DNA from: Stygiolobus caldivivus
GTDB lineage: Archaea > Thermoproteota > Thermoprotei_A > Sulfolobales > Sulfolobaceae
Assembly (NCBI RefSeq): GCF_019704315.1
Contig: NZ_AP024597.1
Span: forward strand, 62,001 to 126,000
Reading direction: 5' to 3'
Length of the DNA stretch: 64,000 nucleotides
In this document: positions 14,320 through 63,265 of the stretch, piece by piece
How positions within the stretch are numbered: position 1 is the stretch's first letter
Layout of the letters: the number at the start of each line of letters is the position of its first letter
Made by a program: the position numbers and the translations under genes
Notes under the pieces: generated by a model
The model's database searches: none
What the model was told of the DNA's origin: nothing
The model's input: the letters and a program-made list of their open reading frames with translations, nothing else

Positions 14320-14320
14320 T

Positions 14321-19900: not shown

Positions 19901-19966
19901 GGTTATAAAAGTAATATATTTAATGAGGTATTTAAAGCGTTTAGAATAATGAGGGGAGTGCTTTGA
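16955..19966 (+). CDS. cmr2: Cas10/Cmr2, signature subunit with HD and GGDD palm motifs
   Basis: A 1003-residue protein, the large subunit of the type III-B effector. When target RNA is bound, Cas10 makes cyclic oligoadenylate second messengers and often cuts ssDNA. The N-terminal HD-like motif is ALFHDPPHK, with H15-D16. The polymerase palm motif is IIYAGGDDVVTLV with GGDD at residues 793-796, so both active sites look intact. A zinc-finger cysteine pair CTVCGNEP begins near residue 513. The start is a GTG that overlaps cmr6 by 11 bp. Intact GGDD predicts that cOA-responsive effectors of the Csx1/Csm6 kind exist in this genome, but none is visible in this window. Confidence 0.95.
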   Translation: MDDNFFLNKIYALFHDPPHKMTVTMGKSGKDFFRKNFEGACGVGGHKGEASIMLYNLIIKELENKPKDFCNIYIKKGTGVYYADIFASEYNRWVLNYLYNNKNKRKSKDHDINKQGFKNQAFFNYFNFHNIFNPSYYVKVNYDIDQEKLKVFKEKFEEVIKDAISNLNIKNISDQTKYLYFLIYTIYEPLWIYSDLPVEVEDSRAPFYTIFDHLYASASMINWVYSSSKPKGFYVVIDIPGVQGVVNSARKASDYWAGSWMLSMIVWLTVWQLIKEYGPDILLAPTARFNPLYYAMVLNYLEDVIGGKVREKVEDVLNTIIGEVSGIYNYKDFVKEAIIPATASLILPKEPGECPIKTENKILEYYKRAYDCIIKELPTGNVSSELCTEFVKAFDITLPAIGSSDFDKVIRGLVEIAEKYADKILIRPAIYVIDIDEVKDEIESDLKEKKVDKILSEKLVNKVIGQYVFHYITTKLYREKIKERYKKEILPKPEWFSSFKRLFDYKSENWEYCTVCGNEPAIFNFAKKKNEDDYSDSTKEEILKLAQVTKGSQGELFEELKVWFKPGEKLGPLCIIKRGLYYTLSGKLKVFRSTDDIAYSYYKEVIQPEIKDLDECKDLINFLDREESDVYKAFGNPVEARKKFSKCTEIGDKKLSCIQKDYEVSEVNEAFINAIKGYRGFYAIIKADVDNMTETARAEIKAEKYLDVLPKLLKHGYFEEYSRNPTSKVLSKHCKYLIYTYMNMTSVANTINEGYILMTPTYRVALSTAMMLTLLRDIKTVEVDNHGQIIYAGGDDVVTLVPIDRLIDTLIGLEDNFVGKDGFFRVRNWYIPAISPNGRSFSVRIANIADFMTNEIQTATELLNKVKKVKWVSSVEAREKFSVIISSSRLNYESILPMWDYKYLRLLKKMWVLNLSNILSSSVYEDYENGFKGLIDGFVKNGVTKGPTYELLKRLISYVLIRNGGEDLIGNFEFEMKILEVGGYKSNIFNEVFKAFRIMRGVL

Positions 19967-20865
19967 AGCTCATAATAAGACCGCTTGAAGAATATAGGAT
20001 AGGACTAAGGCAAAGTAGCGGGATAATAATAGAAAACGTTGACGTAATTTCGGCCTTTCCTTCTCCGACCACGATATTAGGAATAATAGGGAGGTTGAAT
20101 AATGTAGTTCGGCCGAACGAAGCTGAAGGGATAGGGGATTTAGAAGACGCTTACAAATCTTTAACCTCTAGGGGACTCAATCCGTATAATGATAAATCCG
20201 ATAATCCCCTAATCTGGGGCCCTGTGATTTACAAAGGTAATGAGCCCTCACCTTACTATCCGCTACTATTTAGCAAGTTAATCCTCGATGTTAAAAAGTA
20301 TGTTAACATGAACGTGGATAAGGAGGGCGTAGTAGAGGAGTTACGTTTTCAGACGAGGCAAATGAACCAAATAAATAGAAGTAATAGAACCACTATTCAC
20401 TCATTCTATCAGAAATTCTTCTCTTCTGAATATACATTAGAGTACTGCGTGAACGTTAGCGTTAAACCAGGCAGGTTAGTCGCGATAGGAGGTGAAAATA
20501 GATATGCGGGAGTTGAGATAAAGGACTCACTGTGTGATTACGGTAAAGGGGACTATGCGATATTGTTACAGCCCTTACTCTTCGAAACGGATAAAGATTA
20601 CTTCGCTAGGATAGACACTGTAAAGGGATTTGACTGCGTTGAGGAAATTTACGGTATCTTGGTCGAGAAGGGTAACAGGGCTGACTTTAAGGTTAAGACT
20701 GTATACTATGCGTTAGGTTACGGAAAGGTGAGAAGGCCAATGCTCCAAGCTTTACCGCCTGGTACTGTTATTAAGGTAAAAGAGAAGTGTAGGGACGCCA
20801 AAGCTTTGGGAATTTTAAGTGAACTAGGTTTCGGTGCAATTTATAGGTATGAAAATCCGCAATAG
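19963..20865 (+). CDS. cmr3: Cmr3, type III-B Cas5-like RAMP subunit
   Basis: A 300-residue Cas5-like protein that holds the 5' tag of the crRNA next to Cmr2. The N-terminus (RPLEEYRIGLRQSSG, then SAFPSPTTILGIIGRL) fits the Cmr3 pattern of an N-terminal RAMP strand followed by a P-x-T-x-x-G-x-x-R loop. GYGKVRRPMLQALPPGTVIK near residues 247-266 matches the usual C-terminal 'P-x-GT-V' segment. The TTG start overlaps the cmr2 stop in a 4-nt TTGA. It is the last gene of the operon. Confidence 0.9.
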   Translation: MKLIIRPLEEYRIGLRQSSGIIIENVDVISAFPSPTTILGIIGRLNNVVRPNEAEGIGDLEDAYKSLTSRGLNPYNDKSDNPLIWGPVIYKGNEPSPYYPLLFSKLILDVKKYVNMNVDKEGVVEELRFQTRQMNQINRSNRTTIHSFYQKFFSSEYTLEYCVNVSVKPGRLVAIGGENRYAGVEIKDSLCDYGKGDYAILLQPLLFETDKDYFARIDTVKGFDCVEEIYGILVEKGNRADFKVKTVYYALGYGKVRRPMLQALPPGTVIKVKEKCRDAKALGILSELGFGAIYRYENPQ

Positions 20866-37063: not shown

Positions 37064-37420
37064 ATGTCCTCTAAATGCTGTATTAAGGATGAAGATCTAT
37101 GTATGGCCTATTCTTCGAGGCTGTTCGAACTGATAGCCAAGAAATATACTTATGCTATCCTTATTATTTTAGATAAATACGGTAGGTTAAGGTTTAATGA
37201 ACTTCAACGTAAGATGAGCGGGATAACTCAGAAGGCATTGTCTACCCGTTTAAAGGAGTTGGAAGAGCTTAAACTGGTAAAGAGGGAGGTCGAGCAAGAG
37301 CCTCTGAGGGTCTATTATTCCCTGACTACTGAAGGTAGGGCAGTGAAGAACGCGATTCAGATTCTTATAAGCGTGATCAACCTTATCGATAACGAACATA
37401 AGGATACATTTCTGTGTTAA
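37064..37420 (+). CDS. HxlR-family winged-helix transcriptional regulator
   Basis: A 118-residue winged helix-turn-helix protein. ELIAKKYTYAILIILDKYGR, RFNELQRKMSGITQKALSTR and LKELEELKLVKRE match the HxlR recognition core, and YSLTTEGRAVKNAI the wing and last helix. Cysteines at positions 5, 6 and 13 near the N-terminus and at the last residue could sense redox state or a metal. It is convergent with hydrogenase A and overlaps its end by 4 bp. It may regulate the nearby hydrogenase genes. That is inference from position. Confidence 0.85.
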   Translation: MSSKCCIKDEDLCMAYSSRLFELIAKKYTYAILIILDKYGRLRFNELQRKMSGITQKALSTRLKELEELKLVKREVEQEPLRVYYSLTTEGRAVKNAIQILISVINLIDNEHKDTFLC

Positions 37421-38916
37421 TGGACTGTACATACTAAGCACGGATCCTGGGCCCTAATTACGTGGTACGCCTCTATTGGATCTCTTGGATCAGCTACTTC
37501 GACTCCTATAAGTGCCTTAGCCAAGTGGCTCTTATTCCCCCAAGGATCTTCAGGGCCCATATTTATCTGAGTAGGTGTCACTATCTGATAATTACTTATT
37601 TTTCCGTCCTTTATAACTACCCAATGCCCTAGTGCTCCTCTTGCGGCCTCGACTAGACCAAAACCCGTTCCATCCCTCTGGTTAACTTTCTTATATGTCG
37701 GTTTGCCGATGACGAACTGGTCGAGCTCTTCCTCCATTAATTTATGAAACAGTGAAACCCTCACTATTCTAGATATAACCCTTGCGAGGACACTTGGTCC
37801 CTTCTTTTTTACCATGTCCGTAATAAGAGGACTAGCACTTATGGACATCATCGATAATGCCCCCACTTCAGGGGCCACGAGTGAGCCCTTATATCTATAC
37901 CTGAAGCACTTAGTGAAAGTGTATTTCCCATCGCTTATTTCTGGTACGGTTTCCCCCTCAAATGGGTGTAGCCCCGCTGTATCTCCCCTAGAATAGGTGT
38001 AGTGGGAGAAGTTAACAAACTCTAAGATATTTCTCTGGTCTATACTGTCTAACGTGTCCGATGATATGAAATATAGACCGCCTCTGAAACGCCTTTTCAA
38101 ATCCCTTAACTCGCTGTCATAAGAATATTCTTCCACGGGAAGGTGTCCGTAACTCATCAGTATTCCTGAACCATATCCCAAGTGATCCAGTCCCATCTCG
38201 ACACCGAACTTATAAATTAACGAGATATCACCCTCCTTATAATCTTCACTCCACTGCTCGAGGTCTTTTAAACTCCTTACTGTCTCAAGGAATTGGTCTA
38301 ACGGACCTCCTAGGACTGTCTTTTCCCAAAACTCCTTTGTTACTTGCCTTATAATCCCTTTAGCTTTTACAATATCCTGTTGTTGAGGGTCAGCTGTTAT
38401 ACCGCCCGGTACCATCGCGGAACCGTGGGGCCACTGTCCTCCAAAAATGGCGTATATTTCAGTGTATTTTTTTGACCATTTAAACGCTTCCCTATACGAA
38501 GTCCCGATCATAGGAGAGAGTTTTTTCACTATTTCCGGGTAGAACTCTGTGTCCTTGTATCTCTTATTGGTTACATCGATCAGGAACATCAGATACGTAT
38601 GTCTGACGTCGTTTTGGCAGATTTCAGCCATACTCATTACATTACGTATTTTGACTGCGTTAAAAGGTACTTCTGCTTTATAAGCCATTTCTAAAGCTGA
38701 CACCGCAGCGTATAAGTGTGATGCCCCGCAAATTCCGCAAATTCTAGGGGTTATGACCAGGCTGTCTAACGGGTTCTTCCCCTTGAGTATTACCTCTATT
38801 CCCCTGAATAAGTTGGATGAGAATTTGACATCAACGATTTTGTTTTTGTCATATATTAGTTTTACGTCTAAGTCTCCCTCAACTCTATTAAAAGGGCTTA
38901 TAACTTTCTCATTCAA
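37417..38916 (-). CDS. [NiFe] hydrogenase A, large (catalytic) subunit without C-terminal tail
   Basis: A 499-residue large subunit that carries the NiFe(CN)2CO site. The N-terminal ligand pair is in PRICGICGASH (C60, C63). The C-terminal pair is in AQDPCLVCTVH (C493, C496), and the protein ends exactly at H499. Most large subunits have a 15-35 residue tail after this histidine that a protease removes after nickel insertion; this one would need no such step. The RxEG segment is NRVEGDLDVKL. It overlaps the small-subunit gene by 8 bp. There is no signal peptide, so the enzyme is cytosolic or peripheral. It may belong to the crenarchaeal group 2e-like uptake class, but that needs a tree. Confidence 0.93.
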   Translation of the reverse strand: MNEKVISPFNRVEGDLDVKLIYDKNKIVDVKFSSNLFRGIEVILKGKNPLDSLVITPRICGICGASHLYAAVSALEMAYKAEVPFNAVKIRNVMSMAEICQNDVRHTYLMFLIDVTNKRYKDTEFYPEIVKKLSPMIGTSYREAFKWSKKYTEIYAIFGGQWPHGSAMVPGGITADPQQQDIVKAKGIIRQVTKEFWEKTVLGGPLDQFLETVRSLKDLEQWSEDYKEGDISLIYKFGVEMGLDHLGYGSGILMSYGHLPVEEYSYDSELRDLKRRFRGGLYFISSDTLDSIDQRNILEFVNFSHYTYSRGDTAGLHPFEGETVPEISDGKYTFTKCFRYRYKGSLVAPEVGALSMMSISASPLITDMVKKKGPSVLARVISRIVRVSLFHKLMEEELDQFVIGKPTYKKVNQRDGTGFGLVEAARGALGHWVVIKDGKISNYQIVTPTQINMGPEDPWGNKSHLAKALIGVEVADPRDPIEAYHVIRAQDPCLVCTVH

Positions 38917-40280: not shown

Positions 40281-40817
40281 TTATGAGTTAACACCTTTTT
40301 CCCCGTTACTATTGGAATCTTTTTCGATTAGAGGTCTGGTCGATTTTCCCAGTTCTTTTAACATGTATTGGAGATAAGCTAAGGTAGTTTTAACATCGGG
40401 ATCATCAAACGACGCTAATAACTCAACAATATTAGACTGACTGTTTTCTCTGACTATTTTCTCAGCAGCCTTAGAAAGCCCTGAGGTCATAACATCTAAT
40501 ACTCCATGCTGTTCTAGATTACTCACTACCTTCCCTATCTTGTCAAGGTGCTTAGCTATTGCAGTTATACCGTTGATAAAGTCTTCTGAGTTCACTTCTC
40601 CGCTATCTATCATTTGTTGTATATCTCCCAATAACTCAATTATAGCTTTAAATGTTGGTGACCTGATGAATTTTAGTAAGTTTCCGCTTTTTAAAAGATC
40701 TAGTATAGAATCAAGTATCCCGCTACTGTTTAAATAGATCACCATCTCTATTAATTTTCTGAGACCCTCTTTATAGTCCTCATCTTCTAGTAATTCCTTG
40801 AGATCTTCGGTCATCAT
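40281..40817 (-). CDS. DUF1641-like helical protein near hydrogenase A
   Basis: A soluble, nearly all-helical protein of 178 residues from the ATG at 40817 (a TTG at 40862 would add 15). The pattern LIEMVIYLNSSGILDSILDL, a repeat of leucine-rich 'L-x-x-GxLD' helices and the late YLQYMLKELGKSTRPL resemble the DUF1641 family, which is often found with formate dehydrogenase, hydrogenase and heterodisulfide-reductase-like genes. Its likely role is a structural or electron-transfer-complex partner. The motif GAGGTAATGATG shows a Shine-Dalgarno-like site before the ATG. It is on the same strand as hydrogenase A but 391 bp upstream of it. Confidence 0.6.
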   Translation of the reverse strand: MMTEDLKELLEDEDYKEGLRKLIEMVIYLNSSGILDSILDLLKSGNLLKFIRSPTFKAIIELLGDIQQMIDSGEVNSEDFINGITAIAKHLDKIGKVVSNLEQHGVLDVMTSGLSKAAEKIVRENSQSNIVELLASFDDPDVKTTLAYLQYMLKELGKSTRPLIEKDSNSNGEKGVNS

Positions 40818-41070
40818 TACCTCTTTACTAATGGAAAAATAAAAATATTTTGATAGTTTCAACTAATTGCTTTCTGTAAAAATATTCTTTGTTTACGAAT
40901 ATTATTATAATAAAAATAACTATCCTTTATTTGTAATTATAGTTGAACAGTAATATTTGCAGGCCTGCCTAAGTCCAACGCCAGTTAAATTTATAAGACC
41001 TAGAAAAATTGACTAATATAGAGATTAAAAAGTTTTTAATAAGTGAGAGCTAAAGTTCACGCTAATGTTA

Positions 41071-42941: not shown

Positions 42942-43262
42942 ATGGTCGGCGAAATAGGACAAATTTGTGAATTTCTGAAATTAATGGGCTTAGATCTTAG
43001 AAAAGTAAAATATATACGCGTAGATACTTCAAAAATAACTAATGAGTTTATACAATTGTTACTCCTCTCAACTAATACAGAGATTATTTTATTTGTAGCT
43101 AACTCAGAAAAAGATGCCGAGAAGGTAACGGAAATAACTAACTCCCTTTTTCCAGACAAGAAAATTCTGAGTATAATCACGGACGAGAAGGAGAATAATA
43201 CGGTTACAGTCATAGTTGAGAAAAGAGATTACAGTCAGCAAAACCCCCCTACTCTTCTCTGA
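42942..43262 (+). CDS. Hypothetical protein (106 aa)
   Basis: A small soluble protein with an alpha/beta pattern (KVKYIRVDTSKITNEFIQLL, then TEIILFVANSEKDAEKVTEI, then NTVTVIVEKRDY). I do not recognise the family. A TATA-like CTTTATATAACTT (42909-42921) lies about 25 bp before the ATG. Its end overlaps the convergent HupK-like gene by 28 bp. It sits within the hydrogenase gene zone, so a role in that process is possible but unsupported. Confidence 0.55.
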   Translation: MVGEIGQICEFLKLMGLDLRKVKYIRVDTSKITNEFIQLLLLSTNTEIILFVANSEKDAEKVTEITNSLFPDKKILSIITDEKENNTVTVIVEKRDYSQQNPPTLL

Positions 43263-44398
43263 GTTACTAGTTTTCCTTCACTATATACATTAATCCTCGT
43301 TACAAAGCATGTGTCTAAAGAAGCCACAGTTAACAATATTCCTATAGGGTTCTTTGGGTCGTCGACCGTAATTCCCTCTAAACTCTTCTCAAGTGCACCG
43401 CCGGGCTGAGCGATAAACGTAGTTGGTTGAAGGATTCTGTAAGACGAAACTATCCCCTTGTTAATTTCAAAAGTATGTATTAATGACCCTCTTATAGACT
43501 CTAGGTGTGAGACGTAATTTCCTTCCTCTATCTCAAAACCTTTCGATTCAATATCTATATCCGACAACATTAACAGCAGTTTTCCCATAACTCTAAGTCT
43601 GGATAGCTCCCTGAGTAAAGGCGAAGGTCCTCTCCTATAGTAATATCTCCTGGTAAAATTGTCAAACGTTAGTGCTTGGGCTAAAGGGCCTACCTCAACC
43701 TTCTCACCCTCATAAAAGACCTCCAAGCCCTTATCTTCAATTTTTTTAATATCCCCCGAATAATTGAACGGAAACCCTATTACCAAATGTTTGTCCAGCC
43801 CTGACGGAGTATCAAATTCTTGACCGCTTTCTACCAGAAGTTTTACGTCTCCTTTCAGTTCATCAATTGAACTTAAATCCATGAACTGTTGTAAGTCCAT
43901 CCCTATAACCTCCTTTTCAATTATTGTCTTTACGTCCCTGATCCATTCCTCCTTAACCGTTACCTTTTTCTTAGATTCAAGGTAGTCTGTATGGGGCCAC
44001 TTTCCTCCTATTCTCTCCATTAAACTTTTTATCCCTTGTGAAATTTTGATGATCTTCTTAAACTTATCTCCGTTGGGAAAGGAATAAGCGGGGTCTTTCA
44101 CGGTGTAAGGGAACCAGTAGGCGTAAGGGTGTTTTATATGGCTCTCTATTATTTCAAGGATGACTAAGGCTTGTGTAATTTCTACGGAAGACTTTCCTAC
44201 CTGCGTGTAAGCCAAAATATGTGATTGTCCGCAAGTAGCTAAGATCCTCGGTAGGAGCTGATAGAGCTTGTCAGCCCTCTTCCCTAAGAACACTTTATCG
44301 AAATCCCTGACCCTGTTGCCGGAACTCCTCGCCCTTACCACCTTTCCTTTCCTTATTTCCACATCTAAATCGATTACCTCTAAATCTAACAAGCTCAT
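43235..44398 (-). CDS. Degenerate [NiFe] hydrogenase large-subunit homologue, HupK/HoxV-like
   Basis: A 387-residue protein related to [NiFe] large subunits but lacking a full active site. The N-terminal ligand motif reads PRILATCGQSH: the first cysteine is leucine (L53) and the second is kept (C56). The C-terminal motif reads LDTCFVTRIN: the first cysteine is kept (C364), the second is threonine (T367) and the histidine is lost. The RxEGH segment is absent. This pattern and the size recall HupK/HoxV, scaffold proteins that help assemble the Fe(CN)2CO unit with HypC. It starts 44 bp from the divergent hypC gene, which supports a maturation role. A catalytic role is unlikely. Confidence 0.7.
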   Translation of the reverse strand: MSLLDLEVIDLDVEIRKGKVVRARSSGNRVRDFDKVFLGKRADKLYQLLPRILATCGQSHILAYTQVGKSSVEITQALVILEIIESHIKHPYAYWFPYTVKDPAYSFPNGDKFKKIIKISQGIKSLMERIGGKWPHTDYLESKKKVTVKEEWIRDVKTIIEKEVIGMDLQQFMDLSSIDELKGDVKLLVESGQEFDTPSGLDKHLVIGFPFNYSGDIKKIEDKGLEVFYEGEKVEVGPLAQALTFDNFTRRYYYRRGPSPLLRELSRLRVMGKLLLMLSDIDIESKGFEIEEGNYVSHLESIRGSLIHTFEINKGIVSSYRILQPTTFIAQPGGALEKSLEGITVDDPKNPIGILLTVASLDTCFVTRINVYSEGKLVTQRRVGGFC

Positions 44399-44442
44399 TA
44401 TGTAACTAATATTTATAAAGTTAATAAAATAACATTATTATT
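44399..44442. promoter_or_regulatory. Shared hypC / HupK-like promoter region
   Basis: Only 44 bp separate the two divergent starts. ATATTTATAAAG (44408-44419) is a TATA-like element about 24-35 bp before the hypC GTG. The two maturation genes are therefore probably co-regulated. Confidence 0.45.
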
Positions 44443-44697
44443 GTGTGCATCAGTATACCAGCTAAGGTAGTACAAGTAGGAGATATGATAGCATTAGTAG
44501 ACTTCGGTAACGGAGAACCTACACCTGCACTTAACAACGCTGAAGACGAAATAAAGGAAGGAGACTACGTATTAGTCAGTTATGGTATGATAATACAGAA
44601 AATAAGTGAAAGAGAATACCTTGAGCTGTTAAGTTACGAAAGGCAGATGAGAGAATTAGCCCTTACGTCTTCTCTTGAGCAGGGAAAGAAAGGTTAG
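44443..44697 (+). CDS. hypC: HypC-family hydrogenase maturation chaperone
   Basis: An 84-residue protein that begins MCISIPAKVVQVG from a GTG start. The N-terminal M-C-(I/L)-x-(I/V)-P motif with cysteine 2 is the defining HypC feature. That cysteine binds the iron that is being fitted with CN and CO by HypD, and HypC then delivers it to the large subunit. DYVLVSYGMIIQKISEREYL is the conserved OB-like core and GMII is typical. HypD, HypE, HypA and HypB are not in this window. It is probably shared by all three hydrogenases here. Confidence 0.92.
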   Translation: MCISIPAKVVQVGDMIALVDFGNGEPTPALNNAEDEIKEGDYVLVSYGMIIQKISEREYLELLSYERQMRELALTSSLEQGKKG

Positions 44698-46404: not shown

Positions 46405-46905
46405 TTAATTCCTTTTTTCGTTTATTAACTTCCCCCTACTCTTTTCATATCTAACAATAAGGATCCCCATGAGAGCTAAGGAGGTTAAACCTACCACATC
46501 TTGGAGGACCATATAGCTCAATAGAGATAGATCAAAGCCATAAGCTAGTATTGCTGGTACGGGTAACGTTAGACTTAATAAGAGGTTAATAAACCAGATT
46601 AGGCTGGTAAAAAAGGATGTCCATAAGGACTGTGAAAGCTTGTAAGCTAAAAACCCCACGGCAATAATGTTAATCGCGGGTATCAGAGTCAAAAAGGACA
46701 CGTATCGTGACAGACCATCTAAGGTTATCAGGATATCGACAATCAAGACCGCCAGAATGGAATAACCGATCAAATAATTCAGTATTGAAGAAGGATAAAC
46801 TACATTATGAGTAAATACGTCCAAAATTTCGTAAAGAAAAACTACCTGACCGAATCCTACAAGCACAAAGTATACCTTAGTTATTAAATTTACCAAGTAT
46901 CTCAC
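46405..46905 (-). CDS. Multipass membrane protein
   Basis: A 166-residue protein with four or five hydrophobic helices and a charged C-terminus (RYEKSRGKLINEKRN). It overlaps the preceding thioredoxin-like gene by 29 bp and is therefore in one operon with it. No catalytic motif is visible. A membrane partner that exchanges electrons with, or anchors, the thioredoxin-fold protein is possible, but this is inference. Confidence 0.65.
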   Translation of the reverse strand: MRYLVNLITKVYFVLVGFGQVVFLYEILDVFTHNVVYPSSILNYLIGYSILAVLIVDILITLDGLSRYVSFLTLIPAINIIAVGFLAYKLSQSLWTSFFTSLIWFINLLLSLTLPVPAILAYGFDLSLLSYMVLQDVVGLTSLALMGILIVRYEKSRGKLINEKRN

Positions 46906-48139
46906 CTAGAACTAACGCAAACTGAGCTTGGTTAAAATAGGAGTAGTATACGTAACTGGGTAATATGTCGAGGATAATTTTCCTCGCATCGTCTACCCTT
47001 CCCAGATTAATTAGGGCCTCAGCTAGTACCGAGTTATCATAAATAAACTTAAACCTCCCTATACCTTCGCGTTCTGCAAACTCTAAAGTCACGTCATAGT
47101 ACCCTCCTCCACCATAATAATGCCCTAAAATTGATGACACCTTACGCGTCAAGCTATCTTCTCGGGCTAGAGTCAAAGCCCTCAACAAGTGGGCTATATC
47201 AAAAAGATAGAGGGGGGATTCCGGGTTATCGACCCTGTGATTTCCAGATCTTGATAAGAGCTCTAAGAGTAGTTTAGCCCTTTCTGAATAGTCCTCATAG
47301 TCACCTAGGGTATAAAACGCCTCTAAGACAAGTGCATTGACGTGCATGAAGGGCCTTGTATCCACTTTATCGAAAGCGACACCATTCATTATCAGTCCGT
47401 CATCTCTCGTCATCGACTTAAGGAATTCCCCGGTCTTAATAGCATAGTCCAAATACTTATCATCTTTTATCGTTTTGTAAGCATCAAGGAGGATCATTAC
47501 CATACTCGCATTGAAATCCGACATCTTTACCTTATACGGCTCTTTCCAGTCTATGCTCTTCGAGAATAAGTAGAACCCATTATCCCATAAGTAGTCGATA
47601 GCGTTATCTAACGTTATGGAGACCATTGACTGGTGATAGAAATCGTTAAACTTAAGAAAGAGTTTGAGGACCTCGGGAGACACAAACTTAGGCTCTCTTT
47701 CAAACCCACCCGAGATCCAGTCAAAGTACCCCTCACATCTCCTTAGAATGTCCCGGAACACATATTCTTCTGAGAAGGCTGGTAATTTTTTCTCTACCTC
47801 AGGCGGTTTTATGAGTTTTCCCTTTCCCCCCAAGAGATAGATAGAAGTAGAAATCAGTTCCCTTAACTTTTCACTCTCAATTAGACCGTAACTCCCACCT
47901 ATAATGCCTCGATCGGTAATAACGCTAATGCTCGGATATATTTGGGGGGTATACCTGATGGCTATATCAGGCCTCTCATCGGCATCAATGAGTACGAACT
48001 CAACATCTCTAAACTCCTCCTCAATTTTTTTCAATTCCGTTATTTGCTTATCGCAAAGTTCGCACCAAGAGGTGACGGTAAGCAGGACTTTCATCTCATG
48101 CTCCCCTCTAAACCTCGGGCTCCAGTCTGAAAATATCAT
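46877..48139 (-). CDS. Thioredoxin-fold protein with a YyaL/six-hairpin-like C-terminal domain
   Basis: A 420-residue protein. Residues 16-110 form a thioredoxin-like domain with the redox motif TSWCELCDKQ and a cis-proline-like TPQIYPSISV. The remaining 300 residues are helical and resemble the alpha/alpha toroid of DUF255/YyaL proteins (FNASMVMILLDAYKTIKDDK and VNALVLEAFYTLGDYEDY). An ATG at 48094 would start right at the thioredoxin domain. The ATG at 48139 is kept because a TTTTTAAATTA box lies about 20-30 bp before it. The function of this family is unclear. It heads an operon with the membrane protein. Confidence 0.75.
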   Translation of the reverse strand: MIFSDWSPRFRGEHEMKVLLTVTSWCELCDKQITELKKIEEEFRDVEFVLIDADERPDIAIRYTPQIYPSISVITDRGIIGGSYGLIESEKLRELISTSIYLLGGKGKLIKPPEVEKKLPAFSEEYVFRDILRRCEGYFDWISGGFEREPKFVSPEVLKLFLKFNDFYHQSMVSITLDNAIDYLWDNGFYLFSKSIDWKEPYKVKMSDFNASMVMILLDAYKTIKDDKYLDYAIKTGEFLKSMTRDDGLIMNGVAFDKVDTRPFMHVNALVLEAFYTLGDYEDYSERAKLLLELLSRSGNHRVDNPESPLYLFDIAHLLRALTLAREDSLTRKVSSILGHYYGGGGYYDVTLEFAEREGIGRFKFIYDNSVLAEALINLGRVDDARKIILDILPSYVYYSYFNQAQFALVLGEILGKFNN

Positions 48140-48226
48140 ACATTATAATGTTGTGGAATTAATTTAAAAAGGTATACTAGGTATAATAAAGTAAACTTTA
48201 TAATTATTATTAGAAAAAGTAATTAT

Positions 48227-49237
48227 ATGGGCGGTGAGATTCACCAATTAGTAGAGATCTATTTATTTTATATTGCTACAATGACTGTCCTTATCTCGTA
48301 CCTCCTTTACCTGAGCCTAATTAAAAGGGAGGAAAAAGCTTACTTATTCCTTGAGGTATCATTTATAATGACGGGTATCTTCTTAATATTTATATCCAAT
48401 TCAGTCCTAGTATCACTCTTGATTACTGTCTATCTCTGGTTGATCCCTAGACTGCTACACTCCTCCGGTAAAATAGCTCTGGCTTCAATAACGTCAACAA
48501 TTTCACATGAGATCATCATGAGTCTGATCTATTATGCTATTGTTAGGGGTGGGTTATTAAACGCGTTGTACTCCCTTTACTTTTATGCTACTGATATACC
48601 TTCTTTCTCACTTTCTCTATATAGTATAATAGTCCCATCGGTCTTAGAAATTGTAAACTCCTTCATGTTCTTTCTCATGATACTGCCGGAAATTATATTT
48701 GTGTGTGCTAAGACAAGGAACTATTATGCATTGGGGATTTCTCTACTAGCACTCAGCGGACCTAATATTGCATCCGAAATGACCCATTCAATACTACCGC
48801 TCCAAGAAGACCCTATAAAGCAAGCCTCACTTTTGGCATTACTTATATCTGTGGTCTTACAACTCACGTTTAGCGTACAGTACATTAAAAACAAGATAGA
48901 CACTTATTACTTTTCCTCGTTCCTTATTGCTTCATCACTCTTATCAATTTCCGAACTTTATTACTCTATAACGCTAAACGAAGTACCTTACGCAATCACA
49001 ACGCTTGTAGGACTGTTCGTCTCTTTATTATTAATAGCTAAGCCTGTCCAAGTTAATGTGAGAACTGTGGGCTTACCGTTGGTACTGGCCTCTGCTCTCC
49101 CTAACTTGTTCTGGGGTGCTTCAGTAGCTCTATTCTACAATTTGTACCAGTTTGTATTCCCCTTTTCGGTTCTTCCTTTCGTACTCGGCATGTCTCCTTT
49201 CTTTTACGTGAAATTTAATAATTTAACTAAAAATTAG
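48227..49237 (+). CDS. Polytopic membrane protein upstream of hydrogenase B
   Basis: A 336-residue protein with about nine or ten membrane helices from end to end and few charged residues. I see no heme-binding histidine pairs or transporter motif that would name it. It precedes hynS in the same direction, but a promoter-like region lies between them, so it need not be in the operon. It could be a partner or assembly factor of hydrogenase B. That is inference from position. Confidence 0.65.
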   Translation: MGGEIHQLVEIYLFYIATMTVLISYLLYLSLIKREEKAYLFLEVSFIMTGIFLIFISNSVLVSLLITVYLWLIPRLLHSSGKIALASITSTISHEIIMSLIYYAIVRGGLLNALYSLYFYATDIPSFSLSLYSIIVPSVLEIVNSFMFFLMILPEIIFVCAKTRNYYALGISLLALSGPNIASEMTHSILPLQEDPIKQASLLALLISVVLQLTFSVQYIKNKIDTYYFSSFLIASSLLSISELYYSITLNEVPYAITTLVGLFVSLLLIAKPVQVNVRTVGLPLVLASALPNLFWGASVALFYNLYQFVFPFSVLPFVLGMSPFFYVKFNNLTKN

Positions 49238-52943: not shown

Positions 52944-53831
52944 ATGATAGTAGTCCATGCTGCAATAGGGGCTAACGGAGGGCCATCTACTCCTTTAAGC
53001 CTTTACTGGTGGGGGCTAAACGTAATCTTCCCGATAGGTATAGTCCTTTTTGTGTTCGGGACTATATACAGAATAGGAAGGGAGTTCCTCTTTAGGAGGA
53101 CTCCGGTGAAGGCACAAGCGGGTTTTGCTACAGAATTTAAAGAGGCTGTAACGTCTATCCCGAGGCCCTTTTCAAGTGCTGCCAGAAAAGACCCACTACT
53201 GATCTTAGAGACGATATTTAATCACATTTTCATCTTAGGGTTAATTATCGTAGTCGGGATACATATCATTGCGTGGAACTATATATTCAGCGAGCTGACG
53301 GGGGTGCAAAACATACTGGGTTGGTTAATGCCGGCTTCAGTACCAGAGTCGTTTACTTCAGGTTACCAACTGGGGATTTTAGGTTCTTCATCGTTCGCCC
53401 ACGGTGGCATACTGAACCCAGTAGGTGCATGGAATTCAGCTGAGGTAGCCACTAATACTATTTCTCCTTGGAGTGTCCTATCTGTAATTGTGAACGGTGA
53501 CTTTATGGCGCTATTAGCATTAGCAGGACTGGCAGGGTATCTGGTAACAAGGATACTGGATGACATCACTAAGCACAGGAGGTTAAGCAGTGTAGGTGAC
53601 TACGTATTCTTGGTACTGCTAGCTGCTATAATCGTCACCGGACTGGGGGCAGCGTATGACTGGGGCGTTCCGTATTTAGGTATACCTAACCAAGCAAATT
53701 GGTACGGGCTTCATATAGCACTGGTTGGCATATTCATAGGCTATACTCCCTTCAGTAAGGCATTCCACATGTTCTGGTACTATGTAAGTAAAGGTTTCGC
53801 TGGTTATAGCTATGGCAGAAGGAGAATTTAA
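52944..53831 (+). CDS. isp1: Isp1, NarI/HmeC-like b-type cytochrome membrane subunit
   Basis: A 295-residue protein with about six hydrophobic helices, for example GLNVIFPIGIVLFVFGTIYR and HIFILGLIIVVGIHIIAWNY. Histidines within helices (NHIFIL, GIHIIAW, YGLHIALVG, KAFHMFWYY) are candidates for binding two b hemes. It resembles Isp1 of Isp-type hydrogenases, which transfers electrons from the hydrogenase to Isp2 and the quinone pool. It starts 1 bp after hynL and overlaps isp2 by 20 bp, so the four genes are co-translated. Confidence 0.82.
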   Translation: MIVVHAAIGANGGPSTPLSLYWWGLNVIFPIGIVLFVFGTIYRIGREFLFRRTPVKAQAGFATEFKEAVTSIPRPFSSAARKDPLLILETIFNHIFILGLIIVVGIHIIAWNYIFSELTGVQNILGWLMPASVPESFTSGYQLGILGSSSFAHGGILNPVGAWNSAEVATNTISPWSVLSVIVNGDFMALLALAGLAGYLVTRILDDITKHRRLSSVGDYVFLVLLAAIIVTGLGAAYDWGVPYLGIPNQANWYGLHIALVGIFIGYTPFSKAFHMFWYYVSKGFAGYSYGRRRI

Positions 53832-55089
53832 ATGTGGGGGGATAAAGGTGAGCGGAAAGAGAGTTGAAATTAATAGAAAGATAGTTTCAAGAGTTACCGA
53901 TGAACTAGCACCGGCAGATGTTATAGGTATCGAAAACTGTATGAGGTGCGGTGTATGTTCATATACCTGCCCGTTCTGGTTATCAAGCAAGTCATCTACA
54001 GACGTCCCTGCTTGGAGGACGTATGAGATAAACAAAATATACTCAATGTATTATACTGCATATGGTATGGTGGCAAGGTTTTTGAGGTTAAGGAGGTTAT
54101 CGAATAAGGAGTTTATGGCGTGGACTGAGTCAGCTTATAACTGCACTGCTTGCGGTGCTTGTACCATGACATCTCCAATGGAGGTCCCTAACTGGTATAC
54201 TGCAATTCTAATGAGGAGGGTGTTGCACCTTTCTGGGTTTAATTTGCCGAGTGCCGAAAAGATGGTAAGTAATACTAAGGATACTGGAAACGCATTAGGT
54301 ATAACAAAAGACCAATGGACTGCAACAGCAAACAGCACAGGACTGCCGGTAGATAAGAAAGGAGCCGACACTTTATATATCCCTACTCCTCTAGAAATAA
54401 AAACGGGTAAAACTTTAACGAGCGTTGCTTCCGTTATGTCAAAACTGGGAGTTAACTATACTGTAAGCTCCGTAATATCTGACCCAGGTTACTATGCTTA
54501 TATGTTAGGAGGTTTTGAAACAGCTAGAAAGGTCTATGAAAATATAGCCGAAGCGGTAAAGACTTTAGGAGTTAAAAAGATCGTAACCACGGACGGCACA
54601 GCGTATTTCTGGTTAAGGTGGCAGGGACCTAAGAGCACTAGAATGGAACTACCTTCTGAAATACAGCATATTACACAAGTAGTCTACGAGAAATATAAAG
54701 GTGGGAACGTCAAGTTGAAGAAAGCTGACGTGGATACCCCTGTTGCAGTCCACTACTCTGAATTCCTGAGTAGGTTAGGGGGAGTAGAGGAACCACCTAG
54801 AGAATTACTCAGACTTACAGTACCTCAATTTAAGGAGCCCAAGGTCCCGCCTTCCTCGGATAAGCTCTACACGTGCGGACATATGTTGGAGCTATTGGAC
54901 GAGAAGAAAGACACTGTAAAGAAAGCTAGGGAATACGTTATGACACAGCTAAATAAGTGGGGCGGAAAAACCGTAGTAGTATTCGACCCTAACTGTAAAC
55001 TCTCATTAGAGAGCGGGGTCAAAGATAACCAAGGGAGCTTTAAGGTGATTGACATCACTACTATATTAGATGGGGCGATAGTAAAGTGA
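53812..55089 (+). CDS. isp2: Isp2, HdrD-like iron-sulfur protein
   Basis: A 425-residue protein with an N-terminal ferredoxin-like part and a C-terminal region that matches HdrD/DsrK-type proteins only in part. The first cluster motif is complete: NCMRCGVCSYTCPFW. The second reads NCTACGACTMTSPMEVPNW, where the fourth cysteine is serine, so that cluster has three cysteines. In the C-terminal part the CCG motif is reduced: VHYSEFLSRLG, YTCGHMLE and DPNCKLSLE keep single cysteines. It probably accepts electrons from Isp1. It overlaps the next small gene in a 4-nt GTGA. Confidence 0.85.
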   Translation: MAEGEFKCGGIKVSGKRVEINRKIVSRVTDELAPADVIGIENCMRCGVCSYTCPFWLSSKSSTDVPAWRTYEINKIYSMYYTAYGMVARFLRLRRLSNKEFMAWTESAYNCTACGACTMTSPMEVPNWYTAILMRRVLHLSGFNLPSAEKMVSNTKDTGNALGITKDQWTATANSTGLPVDKKGADTLYIPTPLEIKTGKTLTSVASVMSKLGVNYTVSSVISDPGYYAYMLGGFETARKVYENIAEAVKTLGVKKIVTTDGTAYFWLRWQGPKSTRMELPSEIQHITQVVYEKYKGGNVKLKKADVDTPVAVHYSEFLSRLGGVEEPPRELLRLTVPQFKEPKVPPSSDKLYTCGHMLELLDEKKDTVKKAREYVMTQLNKWGGKTVVVFDPNCKLSLESGVKDNQGSFKVIDITTILDGAIVK

Positions 55090-56727: not shown

Positions 56728-57492
56728 ATGTCCGAGATCTCTCCGTTTGACTTGCAACTAAGAAAAGTAGACGTGATAAAACAATTAGATAAAAGCTTGG
56801 ACGAAGCTAAAAGGATATACGACGCTTGCTCCAAGGAAGGAGTAAAACTATTACTCTACGGGTCAGTTGGGATATACAGTAATGTGAAAGAGAATAAAAT
56901 AGCCGTAGAATTACTTAGACTCTATAGACGTAACGGTATTCAGGACATAAATTTCATCGTAAAACCAGAGAGTAGGGACAAATTCAAAGAGGTAATTTAC
57001 AGTCTCGACTACACTCCATACATTCACTTGGAAAGGACATTAGGTCAGATAGCCGGGATGTTCTTTAAAGAGGAAATAACGGTTAAGGTTTACTACTCCG
57101 ATGAAATGAAATTCAGCCACATAATCCCGATAAACTGGAACTCCGAGTTTACGTTTGATAGACAAGACTTACTTTTATCGAAACTCCAGATGCACTTCCC
57201 TACCAATAAAGACCTGTCAGACATAATCGCCCTAATGTTGTTTGATATCCCTGAAGACAAGGTGTTAGACCTCACATCAAGGGACTGGGGGCTATGGAAA
57301 GACGTAACCAGTAACTTACAAAAAAGCAGGGAGTTGGTCTCAAAGCTAATAACGGACGAAATAAGAGAAAGGGACGAGTTAATGCCGGTGATATCAAAGC
57401 TAGTAAAGCTCCATGGGAGAATAATGAACTCACCCAAACAAAAGAGCTGGGAACCAATGCCTGAAGATGCCAAGTACTGGCGTGACTTTTAA
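56728..57492 (+). CDS. Nucleotidyltransferase-like protein upstream of the hydrogenase protease
   Basis: A 254-residue protein. Residues 30-60 (KEGVKLLLYGSVGIYSNVKE) resemble the GS motif of the polymerase-beta-type nucleotidyltransferase fold, and INFIVKPESRDKFKEVIYSL supports an alpha/beta core. EEITVKVYYSD could hold an acidic strand, but the usual DxD pair is not clear. It overlaps the protease gene by 1 base (TAATG), which places it in the maturation operon. Its role there is unknown. I would treat the fold call as tentative. Confidence 0.5.
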   Translation: MSEISPFDLQLRKVDVIKQLDKSLDEAKRIYDACSKEGVKLLLYGSVGIYSNVKENKIAVELLRLYRRNGIQDINFIVKPESRDKFKEVIYSLDYTPYIHLERTLGQIAGMFFKEEITVKVYYSDEMKFSHIIPINWNSEFTFDRQDLLLSKLQMHFPTNKDLSDIIALMLFDIPEDKVLDLTSRDWGLWKDVTSNLQKSRELVSKLITDEIRERDELMPVISKLVKLHGRIMNSPKQKSWEPMPEDAKYWRDF

Positions 57493-58028
57493 TGATGAGG
57501 GTAGGTATAATAGGTGTAGGTAACAGGATAATGGGTGATGACGGGCTCGGGTCTTATCTAGCCCAAGCGTTATACGGTAACGCTGAGGGGGCTGAAGTCA
57601 TCGACCTAGGTAGTGCTGGAATAAACGCAATAGACTACCTTAAAGAGTTTGACGTGATCGTTATTTTAGACGCTGTTGCAGTAGATCAGGAAGGGGTATT
57701 CGTCTCGGAAGAAAAGATAAACGAAGGGGATACTGACCAAGTTACGTCAACGGTTTTAGATATGGAAATTTCTGGCTCACACGGTCTCGGGATCCAGAGC
57801 ACCCTCTTCATCCTGAAGCTTATGGGCTATTCACCGAAAATCTATATTATAGGGCATAAGCCATATGTTTTAGAGCCCATGAGCGGTATATCGGAGAAAT
57901 TGAGAGAGAAAGTCCCCCAAATCTTAGACATACTCCAAGAGGTCTTGAAACCGTATAACGTGAAGATAAATAAAGACCGTACACTGAAAGCCTTCCAAGA
58001 GGTGTTAAGTTCTGATAGACCTTTCTAG
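57492..58028 (+). CDS. [NiFe] hydrogenase maturation protease (HyaD/HybD family)
   Basis: A 178-residue endopeptidase that removes the C-terminal tail of the large subunit after nickel is inserted. GIIGVGNRIMGDDGLGSYLA at residues 5-24 is the family signature with D17 as a nickel ligand. IVILDAVAV holds D60 and SGSHGLGIQ holds H97, completing the metal site. Two large subunits here (B and C) have tails to remove. Subunit A has none. It lies in an operon with the NTase-like gene, an unknown gene and hypF. Confidence 0.93.
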   Translation: MMRVGIIGVGNRIMGDDGLGSYLAQALYGNAEGAEVIDLGSAGINAIDYLKEFDVIVILDAVAVDQEGVFVSEEKINEGDTDQVTSTVLDMEISGSHGLGIQSTLFILKLMGYSPKIYIIGHKPYVLEPMSGISEKLREKVPQILDILQEVLKPYNVKINKDRTLKAFQEVLSSDRPF

Positions 58029-58053: not shown

Positions 58054-58674
58054 GTGGGCGAAATACCTTACAATACGCTCCTGCTCCTTAACATGAACAT
58101 ATGGGTCGCCAGAGACAAGTTGGCTAAAGTAGTGGAAGGAAATCCCGTAATAAAGCCCCTCTATCTATACTTACCTTCAGACGTCATCGTTTCGTTAATC
58201 TTTAATGAGAAAATAAAGGTCGGCGAGCTCAGACTAAGTATAACTAAGCCGAGCATAATACTGTCTCCCTACTATGTGGTGAAGGCTTTAAAGGAGTGGG
58301 ACTTATTAGCCCACGAGACCAAGCTGTATAAGGACGAAGTTGTGCTAGCTAATTCAAGAGACGACATATGTGATAACGATAAAGTGGTGGTTACACAATA
58401 CGACATATCTAAGAGGTTAATTGATAAGAAATTCGTAACGTCTTGCGGAATTGAGTATAAACCCAAATATTACTTTGTACCCTCTAACGAAAGAATAGAC
58501 AGCGCGAGAGAAGGGTTAACTACAGTCCTATACAGATCTGAAGCAGAAAAACTGAACGTAACTTATTTCTCTACCGGGCTCACCGTAGACTTTCATCTCT
58601 CTCTATTCAAGAACTTCTCAGACAAAGAGACCAGATTATACGAGAGCTTGAGGGATATACTACTGGTGGTCTAA
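58054..58674 (+). CDS. Hypothetical protein of the hydrogenase maturation operon
   Basis: A 206-residue soluble protein. The GTG at 58054 is the first start codon after an in-frame stop, although the frame upstream (58022-58053) is also open and looks coding. It has no cysteine motif beyond two or three scattered cysteines ([15 protein letters not shown]). I do not recognise the family. It overlaps hypF by 1 base (TAATG), so it is very likely translated together with hypF and the protease. Confidence 0.6.
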
Positions 58675-60905
58675 TGGCTTGTTATAAATTAACAATTACC
58701 GGGATCGTACAAGGTGTAGGGTTCAGGCCATTTATATTCAGGATAGCGAGGAAAAGCGGGTTAAGGGGTTACGTTAAAAACCTGGGCGGAAGTGAAGTGG
58801 AAGTATTGATACAAGGGGACAAGCAGAATATAGGGTATTTCATGGAACGCCTATTTAGGGATGTCCCCGAAGTGGCTAAGATAGAGAAAGTGGTCAGTGA
58901 AGAAGTCGAATGTGGAGAGTGGAATGACTTCTCTATCCTCCCCAGCGGGGACACGATAAAAGAGCCCAGCCAGATCCCTCCTGATTTTGCAGTATGTGAA
59001 GATTGTCTAAAGGAAGTACTAGACCAAAAGGACAGGCGGTTCAGGTACCCGTTCAACAGTTGCGTAAAATGTGGCCCCAGGTACTCCATGCTGTATACGG
59101 CCCCTTATGACAGGGAGAATACGTCAATGAAAGACTTCCCGCTATGCGAAGACTGCCTACATGAGTACCGTGACCCCGATAACGAAAGGAGGTTCGACGC
59201 TCAAGGGATAAGTTGCCCCCAATGCGGTCCTAAACTTTATCTGACTACTATAGACGGAGATGTAGTGGGAGGAGACCCCTTTGTAACTACAGCAAAGCTC
59301 CTCTCGGAGGGATATATTATAGCGGTGAAAGGGATAGGAGGTTTCCACATCATAGCCGACCCGTTTAACGACGATGTAGTCTTGAAGTTGAGGAACAGGA
59401 AGAACAGACCGCAAAAGCCTTTTGCAGTAATGGCGAAGTCGCTAGAAGTAATAGAGAAATATGCCGTAATCACTGATAAAGAAAGGGAGCTTTTGACTTC
59501 TCCCGAAAGACCTATCGTCCTCCTGAGAAAGAGGGGTGACGACTATACGCTATCTAAGTACATATCACCCGGGTTGGATAGAGAAGGGTTCTTCCTGTTT
59601 TATACCCCTCTCCATTACCTGCTCTTGGAAGAATACCCTCAGCACCTTTTCATAGCCACGAGTGGTAACAGACACGGCTCCCCTATGTGTATTAATGAGG
59701 AATGTGTGAGGGAGAAGTTAAAGGGAATAGTCGATTACGTACTTTTCCACAACAGAAAGATAGTAAATAGAGTAGACGACAGCGTGATAAGAGTATCAGC
59801 AGATAGGACAATATTGTTGAGGAGGAGTAGGGGTTTTGCCCCCTTATGGATAGAGCTAAAAGACAGAGTATTAAAAGAGGACGTAATTGCCTTGGGGGCC
59901 GAACTCCAAAATGCCGGTGCTGTCGCGCTAAAAAACAAGGTAATACTAACCCAATATATAGGAGATACCGATGAGTATTCTACATTGATGGAGCTCGAGG
60001 ACTATATCTTGAAGTTTGTCAAGATGTACTCTTTAAGACCCCGCGTGGTCATAGTGGATAAAAATCCAGTATACCAAAGCGTTTATTTAGGTGAAAAATT
60101 AGCGGAAAAGTTCTCAGCTAAACTAGTGAAAGTCCAACACCATGTAGCCCACGTCCTCAGCGTAGCGGCCGAGAACGGAATTGAGAGGGGGGTAGGGATA
60201 GGGATAGACGGCATAGGATACGGAGATGACGGAAACGGGTGGGGTGGAGAGATAATAAAATTTGAAGGAGCTAGCTACGAAAGGAAGCACCACCTGAAGT
60301 ACGTCCCATACACGGGTGGAGACGTAAATGCAATGAGGCCTAGGAGGATGCTCGCAATGTTCTTGTCCACTCTGATGAAATGGGACGAAGCGGTCAAGTT
60401 TGCGGGGATAAGAGAGGAAGAAGCAAGGATATTGGAAAAGGTCATCAGGAAACCGGGTCTAATGACGTCAAGTACGGGTAGATTTTTAGACGCTGTCTCG
60501 GCACTCCTTAACGTCTGCGACCAGAGGACTTATGAAGGCGAACCTGCAATGAAACTAGAGGCGGTTGCCAGAGGTGGTAGGCTATTAGACTTGTCCATAA
60601 AAATTAAGGGAGAGGAAATCGACACACCGTCGGCCTTCCAGTGGCTAATCGAGAACATGGATAAGTACGACGTAAAGGACATAGCTTATACTGTACAGTA
60701 CAGGTTGGGAGAAGCCCTAATTAAGGCTGCAATAAAATACGATAACAGAGTGGTTGTATCAGGGGGAGCCGCTGTAAATGAGTACATTTTAAGGGGGATG
60801 CTCGAAAACAGTGAAGGGGCTGAGGTCATTCTACCCAGAAAAGTCCCAGCGAATGACGGAGGGATCGCCTTAGGACAAGTCTATTATTATGCACTGAATG
60901 GTTAA
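58674..60905 (+). CDS. hypF: HypF, carbamoyltransferase for hydrogenase cyanide ligands
   Basis: A 743-residue protein of normal HypF length. HypF activates carbamoyl phosphate and passes the carbamoyl group to HypE, which makes the CN ligands of the NiFe site. Order of domains: an acylphosphatase-like domain ([20 protein letters not shown], residues 9-28), two zinc fingers of the C-x2-C type (VCEDCLKEV with CVKCGPRYS, and CEDCLHEY with CPQCGPKL, about residues 108-190), a YrdC-like domain and a Kae1-like C-terminal domain with [12 protein letters not shown]. The gene overlaps the preceding stop by one base. It serves all hydrogenases here. Confidence 0.96.
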
Positions 60906-61732: not shown

Positions 61733-63265
61733 TTACGGGACGGCATTAATACTCACTATCTTCTCCCCGCTACTGTTGTAGACGTGTACCGCACAAGCCG
61801 AGCACGGGTCGAAGCTCCTGACAATCCTGAGTACGTCTAAGCCTGTTACCCCGTTCTCTTCAGTGACCCTTTGACCGACTATCGACCTCTCTACCGGTCC
61901 TCCTTTACTGAAATTCCTATCTGTAGGCGTTACTATCTGGTACCTCTGTATCGTCCCCTGCTTGGAGATCATCCAGTGAGCGTTACCGCCTCTGGGGGCA
62001 TCGTGAGCCCCTACAGCCATCTCGTTTACTTTTCCAGTTGAGTTACTGTTGAACTTCTTTATGACTTCATAGTTTAACAGGAAGTCTGCGAGGAAGTAAA
62101 CTGTGAAGACTCTCGCGAAGAACCTCTCTATAACATCATTACTTCTATACTCCCACTCCTCACCAAAAGCTCTAGGCTTACCCTTCACCTTTCTGTAAGT
62201 GTATAGCCTGGCTATATCACCCGTCGTCGGGAGATATTCCTCCTTACCCAGACTCTGTCTAACGGTAAATAAATAGTTCCTGCCCGATACCTTCAACTTT
62301 GTCTCCTTATTCCAAGGGTGCCTTTCGTCGACTTCATTACCTAGAGGGTCCTTTTCTACGGTCTTCTCCCATTTCTCATAGGGAGTCCCGTCCACGTCTA
62401 TTCTTACCCCTAAGAGGATGCTTCTGAGGTCTCGGGTCACTATTTCTCCGCCCTTTATTAATGCAGGAGGAATAACTCTTTTTGAAGCCCAGCTACCCAT
62501 GTTTTCATAAGTAGCGTCGTAATCGTGGGACTCGAAAAGACCGTAGGTAACGAAGTCTTCTCCTATGTTTTTATACATCCCTTGGAAGAAGTCCCTGAGC
62601 TCTTTAGCTACGTAGAACAACTTCTCCAGCTCAGGTCTGAGCTCTTTGATCCCTTCCTTTATCTTCTGGTCCGCGTTCTGGTCCCTTACCTCTAATCCCC
62701 CAGCTTTCAATGAAACAGGTTGAGGATACCTTAACCAGATTAACGTTGCCAGATCTCTGATCTTTGTCTGTACTTTCAGGGCCGTCTTGTATACATCACC
62801 GCTGAAATAGAGCTGTTGCATTAAGTCGACCATTTTGGTGTAGCCGTGATGGTCTTTATAGGTACAGTAAGTCTCCTTTGCTCTATCTAATAACGAGGGG
62901 CTGTGTCTGGAGGTTACGTTCGTAGAGAAGTCTATTGCTTCAAACATGAAGGCAACAACGACATTGTTATACATTATGTCAGCTAACGCGTAAGCCATAT
63001 TCCTGAGGTCTATATATCCCTCACTCGGGTAGACACCCTTGGCCATCTCTAGTGTTTCAATAGATACTAAAGCGTGAGTCGCACCGCAGACCCCGCATAT
63101 CTTTTCGGTAAGGTTAGGGGCCAGGTCTATCTTCTTGTTTTTCAGCAGTATCTCAAAGCCCCTGAACATCGTAATCTCGACGTTGGCGTCGCTATAGACA
63201 TTACCGTCAACTTTTACATCTACACCTAAATGGCCCTCGATCCTCGTAATAGGTTCCAATTTCAA
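61733..63265 (-). CDS. [NiFe] hydrogenase C, large subunit
   Basis: A 510-residue large subunit with [16 protein letters not shown] at the N-terminus, ligands in [12 protein letters not shown] (C57, C60) and in [15 protein letters not shown] (C488, C491, H494). A 16-residue tail follows H494, so a maturation protease is needed. It overlaps the small-subunit gene by 4 bp. It lacks signal or membrane segments. The group cannot be fixed without a tree. It is distinct from A and B in its partner, which is much shorter. Confidence 0.93.

Follow-up and report, generated by a model that had tools for sequence, protein, structure and literature searches.

HypC and HypD build the Fe(CN)2CO group of [NiFe] hydrogenases. 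In E. coli, residues C2 and H51 of HypC are needed on the HypCD complex, and in the large subunit HycE the iron group is probably placed first on C244, which corresponds to the second cysteine of the L1 motif (Cys2); for HycE to bind HypC, C241 (Cys1) is required (PMC12134894). HupK and HoxV belong to the most poorly understood components of hydrogenase assembly. HoxV carries Fe(CN)2CO without nickel (PMC12134894), HupK binds both HypC and HupF (PMC12134894, PMC3534401), and hupK of bacteria is tied to aerobic hydrogenase synthesis (PMC3534401). A 2025 review describes HupK/HoxV only from Pseudomonadota (PMC12134894), and we found no earlier description of an archaeal HupK in the literature that we searched, a search that several key HoxV/HupK papers fall outside. 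An archaeal hydrogenase survey retained a sequence only if both CxxC motifs were present (PMC11018855) and would thus have removed the protein family that we describe here.

We analyzed a 64,000-nucleotide stretch of the Stygiolobus caldivivus genome (hereafter the window). The locus is a hydrogenase island that encodes Hys (group 2e), SUL2, SUL1, a maturation protease and HypF; the canonical hypC2 lies in a hypE-hypA-hypC2-hypD operon immediately beyond the window. Hydrogenase names follow the gene arrangements of Leung et al. 2024 (PMC11018855). The features of the island are:

37417..38916, minus strand: HysL, group 2e large subunit with four cysteines, a candidate client (from sequence; group name by comparison with PMC11018855)
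38909..39889, minus strand: HysS, small subunit (sequence, conservation in relatives)
40281..40862, minus strand: HysM, DUF1641, HucM-like (Pfam; PMC11018855)
49314..50669, plus strand: HsuS2, SUL2 small subunit (sequence; arrangement as in PMC11018855)
50672..52942, plus strand: HsuL2, SUL2 large subunit, a second candidate client (NCBIfam; PMC11018855)
52944..53831, plus strand: Isp1-like membrane subunit (TmcC/HmcE-like match; arrangement)
53812..55089, plus strand: Isp2-like iron-sulfur subunit (Pfam)
57492..58028, plus strand: hydrogenase maturation protease (TIGR00072)
58674..60905, plus strand: HypF (translation and conservation; named from sequence)
61733..63265, minus strand: HsuL1, SUL1 large subunit (NCBIfam; PMC11018855)
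63262..63756, minus strand: HsuS1, truncated SUL1 small subunit (sequence; PMC11018855)

HysL of this genome terminates exactly at DPCLVCTVH and so has no C-terminal peptide. The copy in genome G050 is alike, and copies in two related genera carry 5 (g7) or 13 (g3) additional residues; the C-terminal peptide seems to be undergoing gradual loss among group 2e subunits. Three further observations concern the surroundings. Positions 46405-49237 encode a thioredoxin/DUF255-like protein and two membrane proteins, their family unassigned, which in several relatives lie near SUL2 or elsewhere in the island. Directly after hypD, just outside the window in the same genome (L040:3002-3730), is a class II aldolase-like gene that is kept beside hypD in relatives with the operon. 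To our knowledge, the source of the hydrogenase CO ligand is not established in many microbes, and a link between this ligand and the aldolase-like gene is a mere guess. Elsewhere in the window, positions 13432-20865 hold several type III CRISPR effector-like genes in a row, recognized from translations only (a Cas10-size protein of 1003 aa with RAMP-like neighbours).

Within the island we find a HupK-like open reading frame that begins with ATG and has no internal stops. Its product matches the Pfam family PF00374 (E = 4.3e-11), the NCBIfam model NF033181 (E = 1.6e-16, far under the curated equivalog cut-off) and, among PDB sequences, E. coli Hyd-2 (E = 6.8e-11), confirming that it is a true homologue of [NiFe]-hydrogenase large subunits. 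It is shorter than these, at 387 aa as against 499-618 aa for the aligned large subunits of groups 1, 2e and 2a. The gene and the parts of its product that we discuss are:

43235..44398, minus strand: HupK-like protein, degenerate [NiFe] large-subunit homologue, 387 aa (ORF, profiles, alignment, structure prediction)
44219..44251, minus strand: L1 remnant PRILATCGQSH, residues 50-60, with Leu53 in place of Cys1 and C56 as Cys2 (alignment)
43475..43501, minus strand: ESIRGSLIH, residues 300-308, keeping the canopy Arg303 and His308 (alignment)
43418..43429, minus strand: QPTT, residues 324-327, keeping Thr326 (alignment)
43298..43315, minus strand: L2 remnant DTCFVT, residues 362-367, with C364 as Cys3 and Thr367 in place of Cys4 (alignment)
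43238..43297, minus strand: C-terminal tail, residues 368-387, aligning with the group 2a C-terminal extension; cleavage histidine lost, Cys387 invariant (alignment)

Residues were assigned by alignment with 32 catalytic large subunits. One cysteine of each ligand pair is kept (C56 in L1, C364 in L2), the other is replaced (by Leu53 and Thr367), and the glutamate of the RxEGH motif has no counterpart; the first-pass annotation had named the same two kept cysteines and the same losses. Both marks of a catalytic large subunit, the four cysteines in two CxxC motifs and the RxEGH glutamate, are therefore missing. The histidine of the cleavage site is replaced by Asn370, and in all eight full-length archaeal copies this position is E, N or K. 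Arg303 and His308 of the canopy and Thr326 of the PT motif are kept; Thr326 aligns with a Thr/Ser that we take to lie beside the cyanide ligands. A third cysteine invariant in the family, C387, is at the extreme C-terminus (GGFC, then stop). The same two ligand cysteines are kept and the same two lost in 8/8 full-length archaeal copies, more than expected by chance.

These eight copies come from four Sulfolobaceae genera (that of S. caldivivus, g1, plus g3, g5 and g7), with orthologues sharing 47-54% identity. Invariant across them are PRxLxTCxQSH, HPYAYW, EVGPLAQAL, GPSPLLRE, ESIRGxLxH, QPTT, SLDxCFxT and a final R-x-GGFC. Pairwise dN/dS ranges from 0.066 to 0.120, with HysL somewhat lower at 0.026-0.085, so the gene is under strong purifying selection and far from neutral. 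This bears on whether the protein is simply a functionless, decayed paralogue, as its lost catalytic residues and the interruption of the gene in one genome (G131) might suggest. We consider this extremely improbable, given dN/dS values of 0.07-0.12 and an open frame with invariant motifs in eight genomes. In G131 the hydrogenase system is decaying as a whole: on contig L039 HysL is broken and the HupK-like gene is split by an insertion with a 321-aa ORF, and HypD is absent from the genome. The first-pass annotation had itself named a recently decayed, frameshifted copy of a nearby hydrogenase, or an ordinary catalytic subunit once the frame is corrected, as ways in which its reading could fail. 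The same conservation and selection rule out a pseudogene or frameshift, and the intact frame, with orthologues that all agree on the residues, rules out a catalytic subunit hidden by a frame error.

Structure prediction with AlphaFold2 gave a model with pLDDT 82.9 and pTM 0.86 (the remaining four models, 69-75), and its top Foldseek matches in the PDB are [NiFe] and [NiFeSe] large subunits. We thus predict a large-subunit fold. The highest TM score among the matches listed, 0.70, is to the group 2a hydrogenase Huc (7utd_A), the group whose C-terminal extension aligns with the tail of the HupK-like protein; Huc differs in being catalytic, with a full ligand set. TM scores to apo-HyhL in the HyhL-HypA complex are 0.58-0.65. 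Among 398 genomes of the phylum, no member of the family was found beyond the Sulfolobaceae; matches elsewhere were weak and partial, in frames of 509-598 residues that are presumably ordinary large subunits. A pattern-based scan of named genomes, which left out this genome and its near relatives and is the sole coverage outside the phylum, picked up only Metallosphaera yellowstonensis and M. javensis. No close relatives were found in viral contigs.

The HupK-like gene is paired with a gene for a HypC-type protein, HypC1, and the short region between them is conserved:

44399..44442, no strand: divergent spacer, 44 bp, A+T-rich, central TTTATAAA; 43-44 bp in five relatives (comparison with relatives)
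44443..44697, plus strand: HypC1, second HypC paralogue; MCxxxP kept, HxGYA histidine lost (VSYGM) (profile, HypC tree and alignment)

The divergent placement 44 bp from hypC, already pointed out in the first-pass annotation, thus holds. A spacer of 43-44 bp is kept in this genome, three g7 genomes, G131 and G050, and HypC1 is adjacent and divergent in this genome, the same three g7 genomes, G050 and G072; in two g3 genomes an insert of about 1.4 kb separates the two genes. HypC1 forms a clade of its own (support 100/99), distinct from the canonical HypC2 of the same genomes. The HxGYA histidine is likewise absent from bacterial HupF/HoxL, and HypC1 lacks the long C-terminal extension of HupF. 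The genomes have two HypC-type proteins, one of them HupF-like in its histidine loss, alongside the HupK-like gene. A second HypC alone does not imply HupK, since several of the bacterial group 2a clusters that we examined have two HypC-type genes and none has an annotated HupK; group 2a is the nearest relative of group 2e. As separate observations, in two of these group 2a clusters the second HypC-like protein does not begin with the customary MC (L121:24181-24414 and L122:3679-3906), and a third archaeal HypC paralogue has lost the N-terminal cysteine (starting MxEYDPYDMA or similar) yet is conserved. Its copies are:

L032:18024-18254
L033:18214-18444
L035:14962-15195
L036:8079-8312
L037:6469-6738

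The pairing with HypC also helps to weigh the idea that the protein, as a pseudo-large-subunit, has taken on a different job, be it as regulatory or structural partner of a small subunit, as H2 sensor or as decoy. The predicted fold would suit such a job, as would the linkage of the gene to the Hys and SUL2 genes and the conservation of positions not obviously needed for metal (KHPYAYW, EVGPLAQAL, GPSPLLRE). However, the protein has no small subunit of its own and is paired with HypC instead, and with Cys1 and Cys4 gone a functional NiFe site is unlikely. We regard this idea as quite unlikely.

We next compared gene content across 31 Sulfolobaceae genomes. Intact HysL and HypD occur together in eight of them, all of which carry the HupK-like gene and SUL2. 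The gene is present in 0/3 of those that have HypD without Hys and SUL2 (G108, G059 and G147), whose hydrogenases are of other kinds only. Over these eleven genomes, which are phylogenetically dependent, Fisher's exact test gives p = 0.006. In G108, a member of the same genus as S. caldivivus, the HupK-like gene, HypC1 and SUL2 have been lost and only a fragment of HysL is left. In 8/8 cases the gene accompanies Hys and SUL2, hydrogenases found in aerobic H2 users; in A. brierleyi, SUL2 serves as the principal aerobic hydrogenase (PMC11018855). Given that Hys and SUL2 are always found together, genomics cannot tell whether the client is Hys, SUL2 or both. G131, where the SUL2 large subunit frame is still open while HysL and the HupK-like gene are broken, is uninformative as a discriminator of clients, for HypD is also lost.

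The closest described counterparts in ligand set are bacterial HupK and HoxV. For instance, C. necator HoxV has PRLFALCGEAH and DPCVPY where the HupK-like protein has PRILATCGQSH and DTCFVT. Among 13 bacterial HupK sequences, sampled from plasmids only, Cys2 and Cys3 are kept in 13/13, Cys1 in 0/13, Cys4 in 3/13 and the cleavage histidine in 0/13; in the eight archaeal copies Cys2 and Cys3 are kept in 8/8 and Cys1 and Cys4 in 0/8. The similarity to the HupK/HoxV ligand set noted in the first-pass annotation holds, although once one cysteine of each pair has been lost, the chance of keeping the same one of each is 1 in 4. Both families are derived from large subunits (the pseudomonadotal proteins have about 340-390 aa), have lost RxEGH and the cleavage histidine, and keep the canopy arginine and the threonine; both are accompanied by two HypC paralogues and by hydrogenases made in oxygen. 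The archaeal family differs in that it has retained a C-terminal tail, which closes with an invariant GGFC, and in that its gene is divergent from hypC rather than in the order hybE-hupK-hypA, with a partner HypC that lacks the HupF extension. Separately, a Rhodovastum plasmid HupK that keeps Cys4 (L098:14941-15987) is encoded next to a formate hydrogenlyase cluster of group 4 and not to an oxygen-tolerant uptake hydrogenase.

Based on these data, we propose, with a probability of roughly two in three, that the HupK-like protein is a putative non-catalytic cofactor-assembly scaffold that works like bacterial HupK/HoxV. Of the first-pass suggestion of an archaeal HupK analogue with a maturation role, the role is supported by the retained cysteine pair, the lost processing histidine, the second HypC, the co-occurrence with aerobic hydrogenases and the purifying selection; membership in the bacterial HupK clade did not gain such support. 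The presence of Cys2 without Cys1 and Cys4 is what one would expect of a protein that holds the iron moiety but is unable to take nickel. In the pathway that we envisage, canonical HypC2 with HypD, the genes for both of which are present, would make Fe(CN)2CO. The group would pass to the HupK-like protein, held by C56 and perhaps C364, with Arg303 and Thr326, in a large-subunit-like pocket. Because Cys1 and Cys4 are missing it would bind no nickel, and because the cleavage histidine is missing its tail would be uncleavable, so that it would stay in an open, immature shape. HypC1 still has the N-terminal cysteine but not the histidine that HypC uses in its complex with HypD; it would then hand the group to apo-HysL (group 2e), apo-HsuL2 (SUL2) or both. 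Since the Cys1 that HycE needs for HypC binding is lost, the putative docking of HypC would have to differ. Judging from co-occurrence, the scaffold probably shields or buffers the intermediate when Hys and SUL2 are made under oxygen. The protein could instead store or protect Fe(CN)2CO without being an obligatory transfer scaffold, or protect the apo large subunit as a chaperone. Such roles have been proposed for some HoxV/HupK members (PMC12134894) and the invariant extra Cys387 would suit them, but the sequence gives no distinction from transfer, and we assign them a low probability.

Whether a scaffold of this kind shares its origin with bacterial HupK is a separate matter from its role. 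We built the large-subunit trees and profile comparisons that the first-pass annotation had pointed to. Bacterial HupK and the archaeal family form separate clades with full support (100/100 each), and neither of the two trees places them as sisters. Forcing the two into one clade lowers the log-likelihood by 5.0 and 3.6 units (p-AU 0.30 and 0.34), and forcing the archaeal family to group with 2e lowers it by 3.8 and 9.2 (p-AU 0.27 and 0.14); neither constraint is rejected, so the trees decide nothing on origin. The profiles point elsewhere than to a common HupK clade. With hhalign, the archaeal family scores 254 against 2e and 142 against bacterial HupK, while HupK scores 205 against 2b, 85 against 2e and 77 against group 1. 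With hmmsearch, the archaeal profile gives its top score, 128 bits, to 2e and only 14-39 bits to HupK; the HupK profile gives its top score, 135 bits, to 2b and 34-79 bits to the archaeal family. This places the archaeal family nearest 2e and HupK nearest 2b, and favours separate roots as far as profiles can tell.

The alternative on origin, though not on role, is that the protein belongs to the bacterial HupK/HoxV clade proper, by transfer or common ancestry, with the same function. In its favour are the identical ligand set, a comparable length, a loop ahead of L2 that is shortened in a similar way, an hhalign score to HupK that exceeds those of HupK to 2e or group 1, and AU tests in which a joint clade is not rejected. 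However, the two families are not sisters, each profile scores a catalytic group above the other family, and the archaeal D-[TS]-C resembles group 2a and most of 2e (DSC/DAC) while HupK has DPC. Nor is the loop a safe shared trait; we dropped it as proof of common origin, as SUL1 and group 3 have it too. We therefore find clade membership unlikely and an independent origin somewhat more likely than a shared one. HysL, encoded at the same locus, is the best-scoring catalytic relative of the archaeal family by profile, and the D-A-C of L2 in most HysL copies is near D-[TS]-C; it differs in having four cysteines and RxEG, about 110 more residues and little or no C-terminal extension. Since it is nearest in sequence to the large subunits of groups 2e and 2a, not 2b, the archaeal family probably arose by duplication of a 2e/2a-type subunit, independently of bacterial HupK, although this is less certain than the role. 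The best reading is to file the protein as a putative HupK-like scaffold, not as a HupK family member. Taking role and origin together, we put forward tentatively, at a little under even odds, that archaea invented a HupK-type scaffold on their own by gutting a 2e/2a-like subunit, for hydrogenases built in air, and converged with bacteria on the same two cysteines and on a second HypC without the HypD-site histidine.

A thermostable archaeal counterpart of HupK/HoxV would help to define the minimum that such a scaffold needs: two specific cysteines, no nickel and no processing. Found here only in Sulfolobaceae with group 2e and SUL2 hydrogenases, it would also extend the link between such scaffolds and oxygen to another domain of life. 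It is probable that archaea consuming hydrogen in air possess an assembly helper of this type of their own.
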